Of a stretch of 64,000 bases of DNA, positions 54,325 through 63,261 are shown piece by piece. The position numbers were made by a program, and so were the translations under genes. Below the pieces are notes generated by a model that saw only the letters and a program-made list of their open reading frames with translations, did not search any database and was not told where the DNA came from. Position 1 is the first letter of the stretch, and the number at the start of each line of letters is the position of its first letter. The stretch is from Gracilimonas mengyeensis (GTDB taxonomy: Bacteria > Bacteroidota > Rhodothermia > Balneolales > Balneolaceae), in NCBI RefSeq assembly GCF_900182705.1, contig NZ_FXTP01000015.1:62001-126000 (forward strand). The letters are read 5' to 3'.

Positions 54325-54385
54325 TTGGATGAAATTATTTGTATTTTTATTAGTCAATAATTCAAAAAACAAAACGAATACTATT

Positions 54386-54844
54386 ATGCAATTTGGATTT
54401 GGAGTAGGACCCGATACTTCATGGATGAGAGAAGAACTGACGCAATTTGGCGTTGAGGAATTAAAAACCACCGACGATGTGGATCGTGCCATGAAAGAAT
54501 ATAAAGGCACCATGCTGATGGTGATTAACTCGGTATGTGGTTGTGCGGCCGGTAATGCACGTCCCGGTTTAGGCATTGCGCTCGAGCAATCCGATACCAA
54601 GCCGGATCACATGGTAACCGTGTTTGCCGGACAGGATAAAGAAGCCACCGCACATGCCCGTGCATATTTCAGTGAATATCCACCTTCTTCACCGGCTTTT
54701 GCCTATTTTGTAGACGGCGAAATTAAAGCTATGATTCCACGGCACCGCATTGAAGGGCGAACCAAGGATGAAGTAGCATCTGACCTGAAAATGGTTTTTG
54801 AGGCATTTCCTGAAAAAGAAGATGAAAAGGAAACTGCTGAATAA
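54386..54844 (+). CDS. BrxA/BrxB-family bacilliredoxin-like protein
   Basis: 152 residues from the ATG at 54386, preferred because the conserved region starts soon after; the upstream ATG at 54329 adds 19 low-complexity residues. The thioredoxin-like fold has the family motif INSVCGCAAGNARPG (CGC active site), plus TVFAGQDKEATAHARAYF and PSSPAFAYFVDGEIKAMIPR. Bacilliredoxins remove bacillithiol from proteins or serve as YphP-type disulfide isomerases. Downstream of sodA, it fits an oxidative-stress context. A terminator follows. Confidence 0.88.
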   Translation: MQFGFGVGPDTSWMREELTQFGVEELKTTDDVDRAMKEYKGTMLMVINSVCGCAAGNARPGLGIALEQSDTKPDHMVTVFAGQDKEATAHARAYFSEYPPSSPAFAYFVDGEIKAMIPRHRIEGRTKDEVASDLKMVFEAFPEKEDEKETAE

Positions 54845-55739: not shown

Positions 55740-56198
55740 CTAATCCTTTGATTCTTTCTCTTGCAAAAACTCTATGAGCTGCTCGAGCTTCTCTTTCATG
55801 TCAATCAGCTCGTTTATGTTCAGTTCATCGCCGGATGAGAGTCCCTCAGTTAGAGACCGTGGAATGTGTACCGCCTGCTCCTCCATATCTTTACCCTCTT
55901 GGGTCAGATATATCAGTACTTTCCGTTGATCTTCTTTAGATTTTTTTCGCTTGATAAGTCCCTGTTTCTCCATTCTTTTCAACAAGGGAGTTACGGTATT
56001 GGTATTCAATACCAGTCTTTCGGTGATGCGATTGATGGAGATCCCTTCTTCTTCCCAAAGAACCAGCAGTACCAGGTATTGTGGATAGGTAATGTTTAGT
56101 TCATCCAGATAAGGTTGGTACTGTCGGATAATCAATCGTGACGCAGCATAGACTGGAAAACAAATCTGGTGGTCGAGTTTAAGTTCTTCCGTACTCAT
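55740..56198 (-). CDS. ohrR: MarR-family peroxide regulator OhrR
   Basis: 152 residues. The opening LDHQICFPVYAASRLIIRQY matches OhrR proteins, with the reactive cysteine near residue 12, followed by YQPYLDELNITYPQYLVLLV. The winged helix is in NRITERLVLNTNTVTPLLKR with the wing LIKRKKSKEDQRKVLIYLT. One-Cys OhrR proteins repress ohr until oxidised by organic hydroperoxide. It is third in an ohr-doxX-ohrR operon, 74 bases after doxX, on the minus strand. Confidence 0.92.
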   Translation of the reverse strand: MSTEELKLDHQICFPVYAASRLIIRQYQPYLDELNITYPQYLVLLVLWEEEGISINRITERLVLNTNTVTPLLKRMEKQGLIKRKKSKEDQRKVLIYLTQEGKDMEEQAVHIPRSLTEGLSSGDELNINELIDMKEKLEQLIEFLQEKESKD

Positions 56199-56272
56199 AA
56201 GACTGAAAGGTGATTAATTCCAAATTTTCGTTGGCATGCACCTAAGTAGACAATCAGGTACCAAGGTGGAAT

Positions 56273-56725
56273 TTAACCATTCTTTTGCAGTTTTTTCCAA
56301 TATTGCCAGGCACCGGTACTCCATAGGGCCCAAACGACTAACACGGGTTGAAAGAACAAACGAATGAGCCGTGCCCGGTCGGTATCAAGGCCAAATGCAT
56401 CAATACCATTTACGTATTGAGATATATTACCGGGAAATATAAGCACGAAGAACAAAGCGGTAACCCAGCCTGCATAAACCCGGTATTTTTTTAAGAAGAT
56501 GAGAGAGAATCCCAGAGCTAACTCCGCAATGCCCGAAAGTACAACCACCAAATCACCCGACAGTGGGACCCAGTTTGGAACCTGGGCCAGGAATTCTGTT
56601 CGAGCCCAGGTAAGATGTCCAGTACCGGCAAGAATCAGGTTAATTCCCAGTAGAATCCGGAAAATATGGTGAACCAGTTTGTAGTTAACAGTTGGGGATT
56701 TTTCAGAAATATCTCCGAGATCCAT
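56273..56725 (-). CDS. DoxX-family membrane protein
   Basis: 150 residues with four predicted membrane helices (about 15-35, 60-85, 90-110, 128-145). The DoxX-like pattern includes LVHHIFRILLGINLILAGTG and VVLSGIAELALGFSLIF, ending LVVWALWSTGAWQYWKK. DoxX proteins associate with redox or hydroperoxide systems. It is in the middle of the ohr-ohrR operon, 8 bases after the ohr stop, so a membrane-linked part in peroxide stress is likely. Confidence 0.85.
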   Translation of the reverse strand: MDLGDISEKSPTVNYKLVHHIFRILLGINLILAGTGHLTWARTEFLAQVPNWVPLSGDLVVVLSGIAELALGFSLIFLKKYRVYAGWVTALFFVLIFPGNISQYVNGIDAFGLDTDRARLIRLFFQPVLVVWALWSTGAWQYWKKLQKNG

Positions 56726-56733
56726 TATTCTGG

Positions 56734-57150
56734 CTACTTAAGATTTACGGTAACATCCACATTGCCATCCAGTGCCTTGGAATAAGGACAGGTTGCATGT
56801 GCTTTTTCGAGCAATTTCTGGGCATCGTCTTTGTCTACGCCTGAAATCTCTATGTCCAGTGTTACCTCAAGGTCTAAGTCAGTCGCCGACTGTGCATTTA
56901 ATCCTACGGTAGCGGTGGTTTTGGATTCTATTTCTTTATCAGCAGCCTTGGCTACATAATTGAGGGCACTATCAAAACAGGCCGCATAACCAGCCGCAAA
57001 CAGTTGCTCCGGATTCGTGAAAGCCCCGCCCGAGCCACCCATCGATTCTGGTACGGCAACTTGCAGGTCTAGTACACCGTCTTCGCTTTTAACTTTTCCT
57101 TCTCGTCCGCCTTCAGCTTTTGCTGAGGTTTTATAAATCATCTTTCCCAT
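56734..57150 (-). CDS. ohr: Organic hydroperoxide resistance protein
   Basis: 138 residues from the ATG at 57150, the standard Ohr length; longer upstream readings add unconserved residues. OsmC/Ohr fold: IYKTSAKAEGGREGKVKSED, PESMGGSGGAFTNPEQLFAA, then the two catalytic cysteines in GYAACFDSAL (about 60) and HATCPYSKALD (about 125). It reduces organic hydroperoxides by a dithiol mechanism with lipoamide. First gene in the ohr-doxX-ohrR operon. Palindromes at 57176-57189 and 57214-57225 upstream are operator candidates. Confidence 0.95.
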   Translation of the reverse strand: MGKMIYKTSAKAEGGREGKVKSEDGVLDLQVAVPESMGGSGGAFTNPEQLFAAGYAACFDSALNYVAKAADKEIESKTTATVGLNAQSATDLDLEVTLDIEISGVDKDDAQKLLEKAHATCPYSKALDGNVDVTVNLK

Positions 57151-57175
57151 TGGTTTGATTGTTAAGTTAAATTTA

Positions 57176-57225
57176 TATCGTTCACGATACAATTTAAGGA
57201 ATCACTAATTAACATCGCAAGCGAT
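57176..57225. promoter_or_regulatory. Candidate OhrR operator region
   Basis: Two perfect palindromes: TATCGT-tc-ACGATA (57176-57189) and ATCGC-aa-GCGAT (57214-57225), 26-75 bases upstream of the ohr start on the minus strand, with TACAATTT between them at 57188-57195. OhrR dimers bind AT-rich dyads, so autoregulation by OhrR is plausible, but the binding site was not established. Confidence 0.45.
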
Positions 57226-57548
57226 ATATTTTTTTGAGAGGGAAGAAAATCCCTGAGATAAAAAAATCGCGCACAAGAAGGGTTTGATCAGAAGCAAATA
57301 TGTAGTTGAAAATTCTTGTAAATGAATATTATGAGACTGAATATGATGCTTTTTTAGAAAATATTTGAGCAGAAAATTGGCGGTAAAAAAGCGCTTTTCT
57401 AATGATTTAGATATGATTGATTTTTCCTTTAAAGAATAAATATGAAGAAGAGTTGAATTATTTTTTGATTAGCTGTTGATATGCATCGTTATCCTTTTTA
57501 ATGTATGGGCCGAGCGAAGAACTAAATCGCTGAACCGAAAAAAATACG
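57226..57548. other. Promoter-proximal region of the sulfur leader
   Basis: AT-rich stretch between divergent ohr and the leader peptide. No strong promoter consensus; TATTTTTTG (57454-57462) is one base long for a -7 box. No supportable gene. Confidence 0.4.
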
Positions 57549-57668
57549 ATGAAAACTCAGAATTACATTCAAACTACTACCGCTGCTACTGAGCAAGCAA
57601 TGAACTGCTGCTGTATGTGTATGTGTATGATGTGTAACACTCCGACGGTAGTGGATGTAATGTGCTGA
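57549..57668 (+). CDS. Cys/Met-rich leader peptide, 39 residues
   Basis: A 39-codon frame from ATG (57549) to TGA (57666). It begins MKTQNYIQTTT and holds seven Cys and seven Met; residues 19-29 read NCCCMCMCMMC and residue 39, the last, is Cys. The pattern cannot be a normal folded domain. Its stop codon lies 22 bases before an intrinsic terminator and 160 bases before a sulfurtransferase gene that opens a sulfur-assimilation cluster. A leader peptide whose translation reports cysteine (and methionine) supply is the natural reading. No strong Shine-Dalgarno precedes it, as is usual in this phylum. Whether the frame is translated is inference. Confidence 0.75.
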   Translation: MKTQNYIQTTTAATEQAMNCCCMCMCMMCNTPTVVDVMC

Positions 57669-57707
57669 TGATTTAAGATAATCAACAACAAAGCCCGCTA
57701 CCTGTCG
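57643..57707 (+). promoter_or_regulatory. Candidate antiterminator pairing
   Basis: CGACGGTAGTGG (57643-57654), inside codons 32-36 of the leader, can pair with CCGCTACCTGTCG (57695-57707): 12 pairs, one G-U (652-697), one bulged T at 703. This uses 57695-57699 of the terminator 5' arm, so it excludes the terminator. A ribosome held on the Cys cluster (57606-57635) leaves the first strand free; one at the stop codon (57666) covers part of it. Confidence 0.65.
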
Positions 57708-57725
57708 CAGGAAGCGGGCTTTTTT
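57691..57725 (+). terminator. Attenuator terminator of the sulfur cluster
   Basis: AAGCCCGCT (57691-57699) pairs perfectly with AGCGGGCTT (57713-57721), with inner CCT/AGG (701-703 with 709-711) and loop GTCGC, then TTTTT. It is a strong, G-C rich intrinsic terminator located before, not after, the coding genes. Confidence 0.85.
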
Positions 57726-57828
57726 GTGTTTTACGGTTCATAAAAATTCTCCCCGCCTCTCTGCTTCAGCGTAGCGCTTTGTGAAAATTTTGCTAAAACA
57801 AACAATAAACACACAAAGCTAAATAATC

Positions 57829-58671
57829 ATGTCTGAAGTATTAACTCAAAAGAAAACCTTAGTCACAACCGACTGGGCTGCCGAACATCTCAACGATGAA
57901 AGCACCCGGTTTGTAGAAGTAGATGTAAACACTAAATCCTATGACTCGGGACATATCCCGGGTGCAGTAGGCTGGAACTGGAAAGAGCAATTGCAGGACC
58001 AGCTGCGACGCACTATCGCTTCCAAAGAAGATTTCGAAAATCTGTTAGAGGAGTCCGGCATTTCCAATGATACCACCATTGTGCTCTATGGCGATAATAA
58101 CAACTGGTTTGCCGCATGGGCCTATTGGCTGCTGAAGTATTACGGCCACGAAGATGTGCGTATTCTGGACGGGGGACGTAAAAAGTGGGAAGCCGAGGAC
58201 CGCGAACTCACCACAGATGAGCCTTCTTATGATTCCGCTGAATACACCATCGGGGAAGTAAAAGATGAGTACCGTGCATTCCGCGATGACATCCTGCCTA
58301 AATTAAACGCCGATGACTTTGGCCTGGTAGACGTACGTTCACCCGAAGAATTCCGAGGAGAAATTCTTGCACCTCCAGGACTTAACGAACTTTCCCAGCG
58401 CCCTGGCCATATTCCCGGAGCCTCTAATATTCCGTGGAGTAAAGCTGTGAATGAAGACGGCACCTTCAAATCCAAAGAAGAGCTCGAGAAGCTGTATGCG
58501 GATGAAGGTATCACGCCTGATAAAGAGATCATTGCTTACTGCCGAATCGGAGAGCGCTCTGCTCATTCCTGGTTCGTACTCAACGAGTTACTCGAATTCC
58601 CGAATGTACGGAATTACGACGGTTCCTGGACGGAATGGGGTAATCTCATCGACGCACCTATTGACCGGTAA
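57829..58671 (+). CDS. Thiosulfate sulfurtransferase (rhodanese)
   Basis: 280 residues, two rhodanese domains. The N-terminal one (about 10-130) is inactive, with FVEVDVNTKSYDSGHIPGAV. The C-terminal one has the active-site loop IIAYCRIGERSAHSWFVL, with catalytic Cys near 237; CRIGERS is typical of CysA-type thiosulfate sulfurtransferases. It moves sulfane sulfur from thiosulfate to thiols or cyanide. First gene behind the Cys/Met leader and attenuator, so its expression should respond to sulfur amino acids. Whether downstream genes share this transcript is unclear because 334 bases separate it from the sulfite reductase. Confidence 0.9.
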   Translation: MSEVLTQKKTLVTTDWAAEHLNDESTRFVEVDVNTKSYDSGHIPGAVGWNWKEQLQDQLRRTIASKEDFENLLEESGISNDTTIVLYGDNNNWFAAWAYWLLKYYGHEDVRILDGGRKKWEAEDRELTTDEPSYDSAEYTIGEVKDEYRAFRDDILPKLNADDFGLVDVRSPEEFRGEILAPPGLNELSQRPGHIPGASNIPWSKAVNEDGTFKSKEELEKLYADEGITPDKEIIAYCRIGERSAHSWFVLNELLEFPNVRNYDGSWTEWGNLIDAPIDR

Positions 58672-59005: not shown

Positions 59006-60679
59006 ATGAGTAAAAAGAAACTGAGTAAACTCGAAAGAATTAAAGAAGAAAGCGCCTATTTGAGAGGCCCGTTGGATGTTGAAGTCACAAACGATGAAGA
59101 TCATTTTAGCAAGGATGCCATACAGGTATTGAAGTTCCACGGTACCTATCAGCAGGATGACCGTGACCTGAGAGATGGCCGGGACAGGCATTATATGATG
59201 ATGATCCGCAGCCGCACGCCCGGGGGTAAATTAACGCCCGAGCAGTACCTGGCTGTTGACAAGATTGCTGATGAGTATGCAAATAGTACCATTCGTGTAA
59301 CCACACGTCAGGCTTTTCAATACCACGGAATCATTAAAAATGAATTGAAAAAGACGCTGCAGGAAGTAAATGACGCACTCATAACTACGCTCGGGGCCTG
59401 CGGGGATATCGTGAGAAATGTGATGGCGACCCCGGCACCGGATATTGACGGGCGTCAGGCGCAGGTACAAAAATTTGCCGATGAGCTTTCCGATATTTTG
59501 CTGCCGGCCTCCAAGGCCTATCACGAGATCTGGCTGGACGGTGAAAAAGTATATTCCGGGAAAGAAGAAGTGGAAGTGGGGGAGCCGTTGTATGGCGACA
59601 CGTACCTTCCTCGGAAATTCAAAATTGGGGTGGCACTACCCGGAGATAACAGTATTGATGCGTACACCCAGGATATTGGTTTAGTAGCCCTGTTTGATGA
59701 CAATAAAGACATTGAGGGGTTTGATATCATTGTAGGAGGTGGTATGGGTATGCACCATCGCAAGCCGGAGACTTTTCCAAGGCTAGGTGATCATCTTGGG
59801 TACATCCCCAAAGAAAAAGTGGTGGAAGTGGTAAAAGCTATCATTGGGATCCAGCGCGATCACGGAAACCGAAAGAACCGCAAGCAGGCCCGCATGAAGT
59901 ATTTAATTCACGACTGGGGGCTGAAGAAATTCAAAGAAGAGCTGGTGAGCCGGCTTGGGTATGAACTGGAACCTTGGCGTGAACTGCCCGAATTTGAACT
60001 GGATTTATATCTCGGCTGGAACAAGCAATCGGACGGGAATTGGTTTTTGGGGCTTTCAGTCGAAAACGGTCGCATTAAAGACGAGGGAGAATTACAGCTG
60101 AAAACAGCGCTCCGCAAAGTGGTGGAAAAGTACCATACGGAAGTGCGCATGACCCCGAATCACAATGTGTTGCTCACCGACATCAAGGAAGATAAAAAAG
60201 AAGAAATTGAAGCCTTATTTCATGAGCATGGGGTGTTGCTGGATGATGAGATTCCCAACCTGGTGAAGTTTTCTATGGCTTGCCCGGCGCTACCCACTTG
60301 CGGATTGGCCATTACCGAATCAGAGCGGGCACTGCCGGATGTGATTCGGGATTTAAACGATGTGGTAGAAGAACTGGGATTACAGGATGAAAAATTATCG
60401 GTACGGATGACCGGCTGCCCCAATGGCTGCTCAAGACCGTATGTAGCCGATATTGGTTTTGTGGGACGGTCCCTGGATCAATACTCTATTTTTATAGGGG
60501 GAAATCCTTCGGGCACCCGGCTCAACCAAAAATATAAAGACATGGTTTACCGGAAGGATCTGGTGGAGGAAGTTCGTCCGTTGTTGGAGCACTACAAACA
60601 GGAAAGAACGAACGGCGAATCTTTCAGTGATTTCTGGAACCGTGTCGGTATTAAAGAAGACTTCCAAATCCCTGCATAA
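59006..60679 (+). CDS. Sulfite reductase (ferredoxin-type, siroheme and [4Fe-4S])
   Basis: 557 residues, single-polypeptide NirA/CysI-like reductase. The two parachute domains start GGKLTPEQYLAVDKIADEYA and ELQLKTALRKVVEKYHTEVR. The cofactor cysteines are CPALPTCG (C-x5-C, about 430) and MTGCPNGCSRPYVADIG (C-x3-C, about 480), the layout that bridges a [4Fe-4S] cluster and siroheme. It reduces sulfite to sulfide. A nitrite reductase of this family reads similarly, but the genomic setting (APS reductase, siroheme synthesis, sulfurtransferase) favours sulfite. No flavoprotein subunit is present. cobA starts two bases after its stop codon. Confidence 0.9.
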   Translation: MSKKKLSKLERIKEESAYLRGPLDVEVTNDEDHFSKDAIQVLKFHGTYQQDDRDLRDGRDRHYMMMIRSRTPGGKLTPEQYLAVDKIADEYANSTIRVTTRQAFQYHGIIKNELKKTLQEVNDALITTLGACGDIVRNVMATPAPDIDGRQAQVQKFADELSDILLPASKAYHEIWLDGEKVYSGKEEVEVGEPLYGDTYLPRKFKIGVALPGDNSIDAYTQDIGLVALFDDNKDIEGFDIIVGGGMGMHHRKPETFPRLGDHLGYIPKEKVVEVVKAIIGIQRDHGNRKNRKQARMKYLIHDWGLKKFKEELVSRLGYELEPWRELPEFELDLYLGWNKQSDGNWFLGLSVENGRIKDEGELQLKTALRKVVEKYHTEVRMTPNHNVLLTDIKEDKKEEIEALFHEHGVLLDDEIPNLVKFSMACPALPTCGLAITESERALPDVIRDLNDVVEELGLQDEKLSVRMTGCPNGCSRPYVADIGFVGRSLDQYSIFIGGNPSGTRLNQKYKDMVYRKDLVEEVRPLLEHYKQERTNGESFSDFWNRVGIKEDFQIPA

Positions 60680-60681
60680 TT

Positions 60682-61503
60682 ATGAAAACCTATCAACCTA
60701 AGAAAGAAGGAAAAGTATACCTGGTAGGGGCTGGCCCCGGAGATCCCGGATTAATAACGGTGAAAGGAGCCGATACCCTGCGCCAGGCTGATGTGATTGT
60801 GTACGACCGGCTGGCCAATCCCGAATTGCTGGATTACACTCCAGAAGATTCTGAACATATTTATGTAGGAAAGAAGCCGGGGAAGCCATCCGTATCACAA
60901 GAACAAATTAATACCATTTTGGTAGCGAAAGCACAGGATGGGAAAACCGTGGTCCGGCTAAAAGGGGGAGATCCCTTTGTGTTTGGGCGCGGAGGAGAAG
61001 AATGCGAGGCTTTGAAAGCGCAACAAGTAGCTTATGAAGTGATTCCCGGCATCAGCAGTGCTTTATCGGCGCCGCTGTTTGCGGGAATACCAGTCACTCA
61101 TCGCAAAGTAGCCCGCTCGTTTACCGTAGTAACCGGTCATACCATAACCGGAACCAATGCCTTTGACAACTGGGGACATCTGGCCCATGCCGATACCCTG
61201 GTTGTACTAATGGGTGTTAAAAATCTGGCTAAGATTACGGATTTACTCATTGGGCTTGGCAAGGATCGTAGCACCCCTGTTGCGGTAATCGGGAAAGCAA
61301 CGTACAAGGACCAGCAAACGGTTTTAGGTACGTTGGAAAACATAGCTGAAAAGGCCTCGCATTCCACTCCTCCGGCAACCATTGTAATTGGTGAATTGGC
61401 CGCCAAGGCTGATGAGCTGGCGTGGTTTAAAGAGAAACAAACACAATTGCTGGGATCACAAGCTAAAGAATCAGCATCAAAACTGGCACATTTTGCAGGA
61501 TAA
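60682..61503 (+). CDS. cobA: Uroporphyrinogen-III C-methyltransferase
   Basis: 273 residues. SUMT/CysG-C family: KVYLVGAGPGDPGLITVKGA, DVIVYDRLANPELL, VVRLKGGDPFVFGRGGEECE, VIPGISSALSAPLFAGIPVT and HRKVARSFTVVTGH are all conserved. It methylates uroporphyrinogen III at C2 and C7 to give precorrin-2, the siroheme precursor needed by the sulfite reductase. It is two bases behind that gene and 13 bases ahead of cysH, an operon. Confidence 0.95.
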   Translation: MKTYQPKKEGKVYLVGAGPGDPGLITVKGADTLRQADVIVYDRLANPELLDYTPEDSEHIYVGKKPGKPSVSQEQINTILVAKAQDGKTVVRLKGGDPFVFGRGGEECEALKAQQVAYEVIPGISSALSAPLFAGIPVTHRKVARSFTVVTGHTITGTNAFDNWGHLAHADTLVVLMGVKNLAKITDLLIGLGKDRSTPVAVIGKATYKDQQTVLGTLENIAEKASHSTPPATIVIGELAAKADELAWFKEKQTQLLGSQAKESASKLAHFAG

Positions 61504-61516
61504 AAAGCGGGAGAGC

Positions 61517-62275
61517 ATGCAGGAAGTACCGGAAAAAATACCACTCGATTTTGAACCAACAACAGAGAACCTGGATCAACTAAATGCCTATTTCGAAAAG
61601 CAGGGCCATACTGCTTTGTTGAAATGGGGATTTGAGACCTTCGGGGAAAAGATGGTGCTGGGAACAGGCTTTGGACCATCCGGGGTATTTCTGATTCATC
61701 AGCTACAGCAGCACGAGATTGATATCCCGGTTTTTTATATAGATACCCACCTGTTATTTGATTCTACTTATGAATTGAAAGAAGTACTGGAACAGAAGTA
61801 TGGTATTGATATCACCCGAATTGGTACCGACTTGACGGTACGGGAGCAGGCTAAGAAATACGGAGACGAGTTGTGGAAACGAAATCCTAACCGGTGCTGC
61901 TATATACGCAAAGTGCTACCTCTCAAGAATTACCTGGAAGATAAAAAAGCATGGATCACAGGAATCCGGCGCAGCCAGTCTGATTCCCGCAAAAGTGCCA
62001 GGATGATTGAATGGGATGCAGAAAATGAAGTCGTTAAAATAAACCCGCTGGTGCAATGGAACGGGGAGGAGATCTGGTATCACATCGATCGGCTGGACCT
62101 GCCTTATAATCCAATGCATGATGAAGGCTATCCGAGCATTGGCTGTATTCCCTGCACCAGTCCGGTCTATGTTTCCAAGGAAAGCGACGACCGTAACGGG
62201 CGCTGGGATGGCCAGCAGAAAACAGAGTGCGGTATTCACATGCCGGCTAATGTATTGAACGGCAAAGAGGAATAA
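61517..62275 (+). CDS. cysH: Adenylyl-sulfate (APS) reductase, CysH family
   Basis: 252 residues from the ATG at 61517, which follows GGGAG; longer readings upstream lie inside cobA. CysH fold: LGTGFGPSGVFLIHQLQQHE (PP-loop start), YIDTHLLFDSTYEL, then RNPNRCCYIRKVLPLKNYL and GCIPCTSPV, the CC...C-x2-C ligand set of a [4Fe-4S] cluster. The catalytic Cys is in TECGIHMP near the C-terminus. The four-cysteine layout marks thioredoxin-dependent APS reductase rather than PAPS reductase. It supplies sulfite to the reductase encoded two genes upstream. Confidence 0.92.
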   Translation: MQEVPEKIPLDFEPTTENLDQLNAYFEKQGHTALLKWGFETFGEKMVLGTGFGPSGVFLIHQLQQHEIDIPVFYIDTHLLFDSTYELKEVLEQKYGIDITRIGTDLTVREQAKKYGDELWKRNPNRCCYIRKVLPLKNYLEDKKAWITGIRRSQSDSRKSARMIEWDAENEVVKINPLVQWNGEEIWYHIDRLDLPYNPMHDEGYPSIGCIPCTSPVYVSKESDDRNGRWDGQQKTECGIHMPANVLNGKEE

Positions 62276-62523: not shown

Positions 62524-63261
62524 ATGTCATCAGCATTAAACGTATACCCGATTTACCTGAGAAGATTAAATGAGAAGCGAACCGTTATCATTGGCGGCAA
62601 TGAGGAAGCGGAGGGTAAGGTCCGTGATTTCCTGGATCGTGAAGCAAAGTTGACGGTTATCAGTCCAAAGCTAAATTCAAACCTACAGAAATGGGCTGAT
62701 AAAGGCCGGTTTGAATGGATTTCCAGAGAATATCGCTATGGAGATTTAGCCGGTGCTTTTGTGGTGATTGTGGCGGAGTATGAAGGGGACGTAAATGAAC
62801 GGGCTTACCAAGAGGCAGAAGAACGCAACCTGCTTATTAATGTGATGGATGACATTCCGCATGCCAATTTTGCTTTTGGCTCGATTGTAAAGCAAGGTCC
62901 GCTGACTATTTCTATTTCTACCGGAGGGGCTGCACCGGCACTTGCGGTACGCCTGCGGCAGCGTTTTGAGCAAGAGTTTGGCGAGGAATACGGCCATTTC
63001 CTGGAGTTCATGCAAAGCTTGCGAAAGCCCATGAGCCGGCATCATAAAAGTTTCCAGGTGCGCCGAAAGATTTGGTACGAACTCATCGATTCGGATATAC
63101 TCACACTCTTCCGTGAAAACAGGAAAAAAGATGCCTACAAGAAAGCTTCGGAGATTGCAGGGGAGAAAGTTGTGAATGATGCTTTGGGAAATGGCTCTGA
63201 AGAGAAACGTGTGGGTCTTATCGAGAAGTTATTTGGGAAGCTGCCGTTGGTGAGGAATTAG
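62524..63261 (+). CDS. Precorrin-2 dehydrogenase / sirohydrochlorin ferrochelatase
   Basis: 245 residues. CysG-N/Met8-like: VYPIYLRRLNEKRTVIIGGN (Rossmann entry), VISPKLNSNLQKWADKGRFE, LLINVMDDIPHANFAFGSIV, ISTGGAAPALAVRLRQRFEQ, and the C-terminal RKPMSRHHKSFQVRRKIW. It oxidises precorrin-2 and inserts iron to give siroheme, completing the cofactor path begun by CobA. It follows cysH by 248 bases that include hairpin repeats, so it may be a separate transcript. The C-terminal helix is basic (SEEKRVGLIEKLFGKLP). Confidence 0.9.
   Translation: MSSALNVYPIYLRRLNEKRTVIIGGNEEAEGKVRDFLDREAKLTVISPKLNSNLQKWADKGRFEWISREYRYGDLAGAFVVIVAEYEGDVNERAYQEAEERNLLINVMDDIPHANFAFGSIVKQGPLTISISTGGAAPALAVRLRQRFEQEFGEEYGHFLEFMQSLRKPMSRHHKSFQVRRKIWYELIDSDILTLFRENRKKDAYKKASEIAGEKVVNDALGNGSEEKRVGLIEKLFGKLPLVRN

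Follow-up and report, generated by a model that had tools for sequence, protein, structure and literature searches.

Attenuators of the trp, his, thr and ilv type in enterobacteria have a leader ORF containing runs of codons for the amino acid product of the operon, together with mutually exclusive protector, antiterminator and terminator helices. Leaders that read two or three amino acids are known for thr and ilv. A poly-Cys leader of mycobacteria reportedly responds to cysteine, as the title of Canestrari et al. 2020 has it.

The uORFC-8-2 motif is located before cysS in Rhodobacterales and has a Cys uORF and a terminator-like stem with a U run; ribosome-mediated attenuation is proposed for it computationally (PMC8632094). 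Poly-Cys leaders are also described for mycobacterial and other actinobacterial cys operons, and that report finds no conserved terminator hairpins in the mycobacterial regions (PMC1262725). Another paper cites mycobacterial cysteine genes as being under translation attenuation (PMC13236596). In Flavobacterium psychrophilum, leader-peptide attenuation of amino-acid operons was proposed from transcriptome data (PMC9723704), and premature terminators were surveyed in a 2010 paper (PMC2965389). In open-licence PMC text, there was no Cys or Cys plus Met attenuator in Balneolota among the matches listed.

Here we describe a leader in Gracilimonas mengyeensis that is very probably, judging from its sequence, a ribosome-mediated transcription attenuator of a sulfur-assimilation operon. 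It has in common with enterobacterial attenuators a codon-run ORF, three mutually exclusive helices and a biosynthetic operon downstream, and differs from them in that its codons are for Cys and Met and lie between the protector strand (E0) and the antiterminator strand (E1), and in that its host belongs to the Balneolota. Like uORFC-8-2, it combines a short Cys-codon uORF with a terminator-like stem and a U run. However, that motif has two tandem Cys codons and is found before cysS in Alphaproteobacteria (PMC8632094), whereas the genes downstream here are for rhodanese, CysI, SUMT, CysH and CysG, with no cysS. As in the mycobacterial poly-Cys leaders, there is a run of Cys codons in a short frame before sulfur genes; unlike those leaders, there is an intrinsic terminator (15/15 leaders) and an alternative pairing. 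The F. psychrophilum leaders are similar in being a case of leader-peptide attenuation in the wider Bacteroidota group, and no cysteine leader is named in the available part of that report (PMC9723704).

Results

A Cys- and Met-rich leader frame is followed by a terminator and overlaps two RNA strands that can pair with each other. The window, the whole 64,000-nucleotide stretch of DNA that was analyzed, had been reported in an initial annotation to contain a 39-codon frame with seven Cys and seven Met codons and the core NCCCMCMCMMC. We found this frame again at 57549-57668 on the plus strand (39 codons plus a stop codon; the Met count includes Met1), with the translation MKTQNYIQTTTAATEQAMNCCCMCMCMMCNTPTVVDVMC. 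No other frame of 8-70 codons, on either strand of the window, has at least five Cys in 12 residues. The regulatory codons, TGC TGC TGT ATG TGT ATG TGT ATG ATG TGT (CCCMCMCMMC), are at 57606-57635 (plus strand) and are supported by residue retention and by their spacing to E1.

The RNA strands, all on the plus strand, were defined by pairing and folding. E0, the protector strand, is within the ORF (57561-57583; core CTACTACCG, 57574-57582) and pairs with E1 in the minimum free energy fold and in duplex and swap tests; it was absent from the initial annotation and was added in this analysis. E1, the antiterminator strand (57643-57654; conserved core GGTAGTGG, 57647-57654), was defined by its pairing with E2 over 15 leaders. 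E2 (CCGCTACC, 57695-57702) is inside the 5' arm of the intrinsic terminator, which consists of this arm, a 3' arm (E3) and a U-tract. The strong terminator that had been described after the leader frame is indeed present: pairing and folds place the hairpin from 57690, 21 nt past the leader stop codon, with the U-tract ending at 57725, and a separate terminator scan also called a terminator-like site. The alternative pairing that had been pointed out was likewise found: CGACGGTAGTGG (57643-57654) and CCGCTACCTGTCG (57695-57707) can form 12 pairs, counted by eye, leaving a single base bulged. This E0/E1/E2/E3 arrangement is the classical trp-type layout.

The region folds more stably than expected from its composition. 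The fold of the 182 nt from 57549 to 57730 had an energy of -58.4 kcal/mol, compared to -41.95 for shuffled sequences (z = -4.58), and 0/200 shuffles were as good. The E1:E2 duplex of the window had an energy of -14.9 kcal/mol, compared to a shuffled mean of -7.5 (p = 0.004), and the E0:E1 duplex was also better than shuffles (p = 0.008).

A promoter-like element is found upstream of the leader. TTGAT-N18-TAATGT (57476-57504, plus strand), which was not in the initial annotation, recurs in relatives: TTGA[CTA]-N18-TA was present 52-82 nt before the ATG in 14/15 leaders, with a mean of 0.97 and a maximum of 5 in letter shuffles. This position suggests a 5' UTR, and the transcript perhaps starts near 57511. 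A scan for E. coli-type consensus promoters gave 0 promoters.

The genes downstream of the terminator are for sulfur assimilation. Protein profiles agreed with the sulfurtransferase and sulfur-assimilation genes that had been listed there, all on the plus strand. The predicted first regulated gene (57829-58671) encodes a two-domain rhodanese resembling 3-mercaptopyruvate sulfurtransferase, with a profile match below that model's cut-off. It is followed by genes for an assimilatory sulfite reductase hemoprotein of the CysI type (59006-60679; NF010029, 794 bits, cut-off 457), uroporphyrinogen-III C-methyltransferase (SUMT/CobA; 60682-61503; NF004790, 310 bits, cut-off 198), phosphoadenylyl-sulfate reductase CysH (frame 61388-62275, with the true start probably inside it; NF002537, 240.7 bits, residues 57-286), and a siroheme synthase/CysG N-terminal domain (62524-63261; TIGR01470, 156.4 bits, cut-off 62.3).

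There are additional features nearby. An inverted repeat, GCTTTGTG...CACAAAGC (57776-57819), is located between the terminator and the rhodanese start and is possibly a protein site or an mRNA-stabilizing hairpin; CTTTGTG/CACAAAG is found downstream of the terminator in 10/15 leaders, the window's among them. On the minus strand (55740-57192), genes for an Ohr-family peroxiredoxin, a protein with a weak DoxX match and an OhrR-like MarR regulator adjoin the leader divergently, and a BrxA/BrxB-type bacilliredoxin gene is at 54329-54844.

The leader is conserved in relatives that have CysI. A peptide search of 57 genomes with the 39-aa leader convincingly found only itself (best other E 0.02). 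The leader is too short for such a search, and we therefore looked for relatives via the downstream genes. A search of 116 related genomes found CysI in 18, and 18/18 of these had a short Cys-codon frame and a terminator before the cysI-containing operon. There were two families. In the window's family (14/18 genomes) the leader is before rhodanese, the linkage of rhodanese and CysI being assumed in G059 because the two genes are on different contigs. In the other family (4/18) it is directly before cysI, with only 2-3 Cys per frame. The initial annotation had named a lack of conserved Cys codons and of conserved alternative pairing in close relatives as grounds for giving up its proposal; a Cys-codon frame with a terminator was present in 18/18 genomes, and the alternative pairing was kept in the 15 leaders that were aligned. 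Eight of eight named Balneolaceae loci, including those of Fodinibius salsisoli, F. sediminis, F. roseus (G116, which joined the set later) and Rhodohalobacter sulfatireducens, have the leader; these loci overlap the main set and are not independent cases. Nine genomes of the same genus had neither rhodanese (E<=1e-30) nor CysI (E<=1e-50) and therefore cannot be used to test leader conservation.

A Cys-rich frame was upstream of 4 of 72 other rhodanese loci, and the reverse-strand control gave no fewer (4/80 loci). Among these four loci, only L128 and L146 (Acidobacteria, according to their titles) had a terminator, and their E1-type pairing was weak (p 0.04-0.26). G094, of the same class as the window, has three Cys frames that are each followed by a terminator; a test for an E1-like strand on the whole leaders gave p = 0.014, 0/500 and 0.008, and a second test, on the sequence after the last Cys codon, found no E1-like strand (p = 0.78, 0.91 and 0.34). 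Because of these results, we claim nothing firm beyond the Balneolales.

One rhodanese copy appears in a different form. The leader of the first rhodanese copy of G078 (L051, ~2490-2667) matched the covariance model described below (8.3e-7) and kept E1 and the terminator; it had no frame with at least 4 Cys, and the next gene is not cysI. It may be an attenuator that has lost its sensor.

Cys codons, and less strictly Met codons, are retained along with the RNA strands. Between close relatives, 72/76 Cys, 60/75 Met and 200/339 other residues were retained (counted on 7 of 8 close pairs, with the pair G067/L098 dropped). Codon changes over all 8 close pairs of leaders comprised 82 replacement and 16 silent changes, and as a coding test the leader frames showed no third-position excess (changes 47/42/50). 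E1 is retained as RNA although it is read in two frames, giving VV in the window, G072 and G027, and a GSG-like sequence in most other leaders. We conclude that the Cys codons, to a lesser degree the Met codons, and the RNA strands are what is conserved.

The competing helices are supported across 15 aligned leaders, that is, those of the 14 CysI genomes of the window's family plus one more rhodanese leader (G089). The p-values that follow are guides, because the species are related. E1:E2 was better than shuffled sequence at p<0.02 in 14/15 leaders and at p = 0.061 in G075. Standard pairs made up 98.3% of E1:E2 cells and 95.2% of E2:E3 cells, with changes on both sides at 2/8 and 4/14 pairs, respectively. 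For E1:E2, the number of pairs changed on both sides is weak evidence, because 85/500 column shuffles reach it; the covariation score was reached by 2/500 column shuffles for E1:E2 and by 0/500 for E2:E3. The initial annotation had suggested looking for covariation of terminator and antiterminator in relatives, and paired substitutions were present in both helices. The clearest case was G028, GATAGCGG with CCGCTATC, and a further variant, GGCAGTGG with CCGCTGCC, was found in G107 and G059. The E1:E2 swap test gave p = 0.009.

For E0:E1, the duplex test gave p<0.05 in 10/15 leaders and was not significant in the other 5/15 (G026, G107, G059, G016 and G089). When partners were swapped among leaders, own partners averaged -19.0 kcal/mol and swapped partners -14.3 (permutation p = 5e-5, also with 11 representatives); ranks of the own E1 ran from 1 to 12, it was best in only 3/15 leaders, and the window's own partner was 6th of 15.

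Spacing and predicted folds fit a switch that depends on the position of a ribosome. The last Cys codon upstream of E1 started 12-21 nt before E1, and the leader stop codon was 7-22 nt past E1, in 15/15 leaders; a few leaders, including that of the window, have a further Cys codon beyond E1. In folds of the full-length RNA, the terminator formed with P(E2:E3) of 0.86-1.00 in 15/15. Folds of only the RNA that lies 3' of a ribosome positioned on the Cys codons gave E1:E2 with P of at least 0.86 in 15/15. For a ribosome-free transcript ending at E2, at equilibrium, E1 preferred E0 in 9/15 leaders, E2 in 5/15 (the window included), and neither in G016. Termination in the five leaders in which E1 prefers E2 would therefore depend on the order in which helices fold or on a ribosome.

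A covariance model of the leader RNA finds a wider family with different codons. We built the model from E1 to the terminator of the leaders and ran it on 244 genomes from the class and on 394 from the phylum, two sets that overlap. There were matches in 89/244 genomes at E<=0.01 and in 28/394 at E<=1e-4. Beyond the leaders already read, 94 matches were opened (28 + 59 + 7), and the unopened ones comprised further weak matches, some matches in the trpE range, and matches on the reverse strand of known leaders, which arise because the terminator is a palindrome. The downstream genes of the 94 were typed by tblastn with nine query proteins: 35 TrpE, 8 DASS-type transporter, 7 SUMT, 6 rhodanese, 5 CysI, 5 SusC, 3 CysH-like (27-31% identity), 2 SfnG (dimethylsulfone monooxygenase) and 23 with none. 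Thus 36/94 are Cys or Cys/Met leaders located before a sulfur gene or a gene for a SusC-type receptor. The 23 untyped matches were one Ile/Val leader (G463) and 22 that look like chance, two of which seem by eye to be over the 3' end of a tRNA; the matches outside the class were one Ile/Val-codon leader and two that look like chance. The profiled examples were one transporter (DASS/CitMHS-type; above the Pfam and below the NCBIfam cut-off), one SfnG, one trpE and two SusC-type genes.

The trpE leaders are an internal positive control, with Trp codons on the same RNA layout. WW was present in some frame in 34/35, which alone is a weak flag because WW in any frame also occurs in some non-Trp leaders. 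The window's own genome has a trpE leader at C1:142769, MKTKNAQINNWWWPVISNNSGPAT, before a gene above the TIGR00564 cut-off, and its E1 and E2 pair likewise (-15.2 kcal/mol). The same genome has a second Cys/Met leader (G000:C11:77068-77150; L203, L222) with E1:E2 of -17.8 kcal/mol, before genes for SusC, a sub-threshold SusD match and an M14 carboxypeptidase, an arrangement that suggests sulfur-amino-acid control of peptide import. The Ile/Val leader of G463 (L282; MRLNQINTVVNSFLAIIIVVVVIIPVTHGGGYGL), from outside the class in the same GTDB phylum, has the same E1/terminator layout, and the gene after it looks by eye like ilvD.

A second leader type was found in five genomes. It has Cys runs (CCCCCCS or CCCYCCCS) before the stop codon and a hairpin without a U-tract, and is divergently placed (L051:6789-6682, L053:2204-2109, L086:3695-3612, L077:3281-3195 and L078:3909-3989). 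In 3/5 genomes it is followed by genes for a CysM-like synthase, a JAMM-like protein and a small ThiS-type carrier; in the one genome in which this operon was profiled, a ThiF/rhodanese protein comes next. This gene order resembles the CysO/Mec route of mycobacteria. This type is possibly a translational or Rho-linked cysteine leader.

Met content separates the leader classes. In 18 rhodanese leaders, Cys was 16.1% and Met 15.7% of the residues after the start. Met was 13-21% in the five sulfur-supply or SusC classes (rhodanese, SusC, SfnG, transporter, and other cysI/SUMT), and 1.8% in trpE leaders, 1.9% in CysH-like leaders and 1.4% in the second leader type. These figures are for leaders entered by hand, with the start codon chosen by hand where the frame was longer; they include 24/35 trpE leaders and 18/22 rhodanese-operon leaders (G117, G121, G125 and G136 are out), and leave out the SUMT leader of G038 (3 Cys). 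Because Met is rare in the trpE and Cys-only leaders, the chassis does not need Met; by composition, Met accompanies the genes that bring sulfur in.

Discussion

The frame, its codons, the three mutually exclusive helices and their conservation can be read directly from the DNA. The region has the features of a ribosome-mediated attenuator: pathway-matching regulatory codons in a short ORF (of predicted translation), an intrinsic terminator that separates the leader from the first gene (15/15 leaders), a conserved antiterminator that excludes the terminator, a protector helix that excludes the antiterminator (p = 5e-5 in the swap test, with the duplex test not significant in 5/15), and spacing of E1 to the codons and to the stop codon that fits a ribosome footprint (15/15).

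We infer from these features a model that covers the transcript start, translation of the leader, stalling of the ribosome, the efficiency of termination, the response to cysteine and the sensing of Met. Transcription would start near 57511, and the 39-codon leader would be translated. With ample charged tRNA-Cys (and tRNA-Met), the ribosome would pass the Cys/Met cluster and reach the stop codon, where E1 would be covered or re-paired with E0, leaving E2 free for E3, and the E2:E3 terminator would halt RNA polymerase ahead of the rhodanese gene. Under a shortage of cysteine (or methionine), the ribosome would stall on the cluster between E0 and E1, with its 3' edge ending at about the start of E1; E1:E2 would then pair, the terminator would be blocked, and the operon would be transcribed. 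A ribosome covers ~13 nt past the first nucleotide of the codon in its A site, and with this footprint a stall at any of the clustered Cys codons would leave E1 free or nearly so. A ribosome at the stop codon would cover most of E1 in the window and little of it where the stop codon is 16-22 nt away; in those leaders, E0 would have to sequester E1. During transcription the E0:E1 helix would be made first, unlike in the equilibrium picture.

We considered other explanations for the same features. The leader could be a metal- or thiol-binding peptide, with metal on the nascent chain, and not tRNA charging, arresting the ribosome. Interleaved Cys and Met are generally like metal-binding motifs, but this explanation seems improbable given that residues outside Cys and Met are poorly kept (the excess of replacement over silent changes in the 8 close pairs), that E1 is read as VV or as GSG-like residues, that sister leaders on the same RNA have Trp codons before trpE, and that no metal genes are among the profiled downstream genes, which encode sulfur-related proteins or SusC-type receptors. 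It is also very unlikely that the region is no more than an intrinsic terminator following a small gene or small RNA that has nothing to do with the operon, with the operon under some other control and the alternative pairing a by-product of the repeated arm of the terminator. E1 does resemble E3, and part of the E1:E2 pairing follows from this similarity, because both pair with E2. However, E1 is at a constant distance from the Cys codons and the stop codon and co-varies with E0, and several other sulfur genes are preceded by the element as well.

Operons of this kind often have a riboswitch or a protein-bound leader RNA ahead of them, and the Cys-rich frame could have arisen by chance in a metabolite-binding riboswitch or a protein-bound leader. 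We find this hardly credible: a covariance-model search of the window for Rfam families gave 0 matches at the gathering score, and relatives would not have retained a frame of chance origin. We set aside the metal-binding peptide, the plain terminator and the riboswitch on the evidence given for each.

If the leader is a ribosome-mediated attenuator, its Met codons could still be incidental, reflecting favored unpaired sequence or extra AUG starts, with cysteine alone being sensed. This has a substantial chance of being correct, although short of even: Cys is better kept than Met (72/76 versus 60/75), and leaders that have Cys runs but hardly any Met occur on the same chassis before CysH-like genes, and also as the second leader type. 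On the other side are the 13-21% Met in the five sulfur-supply and SusC classes versus 1.8% in trpE and 1.4-1.9% in Cys-only classes, and the existence of SusC leaders in which Met predominates, such as MTSRNYQINMCIMPFGMLMSMCSMMMTYTGWDDSGSMKAT, which has 2 Cys. From these compositions, Met is likely sensed as a second input beside Cys. A broader proposal, which we regard as evenly balanced between right and wrong, is that the Balneolales have one attenuator chassis with exchangeable codons (Trp for trpE, Cys plus Met for sulfur supply, and Cys only for CysH-like genes), and that the Cys plus Met version is a two-amino-acid sensor that would run a whole regulon by translation speed alone, comprising uptake of an anion (probably sulfate), sulfite reduction, sulfone use and peptide import.

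The mechanism proposed here is a known one, in a form that would probably sense Cys plus Met for a sulfur regulon in Balneolota; within the scope of the literature covered, the pair of amino acids, the regulon and the phylum all seem to be new. Attenuation by this leader would provide a testable account of how sulfur amino acids are sensed in a little-studied phylum, via how fast Cys and Met codons are translated. Should Met prove to be a genuine second input, the leader would be a sulfur analogue of the Thr plus Ile and the Leu/Val/Ile attenuators. The trpE layout with its codons swapped would constitute a natural experiment on how the specificity of an attenuator changes, and the family leads to predictions of regulation for genes whose role is unclear, among them the SusC/carboxypeptidase locus, which may function in sulfur scavenging.
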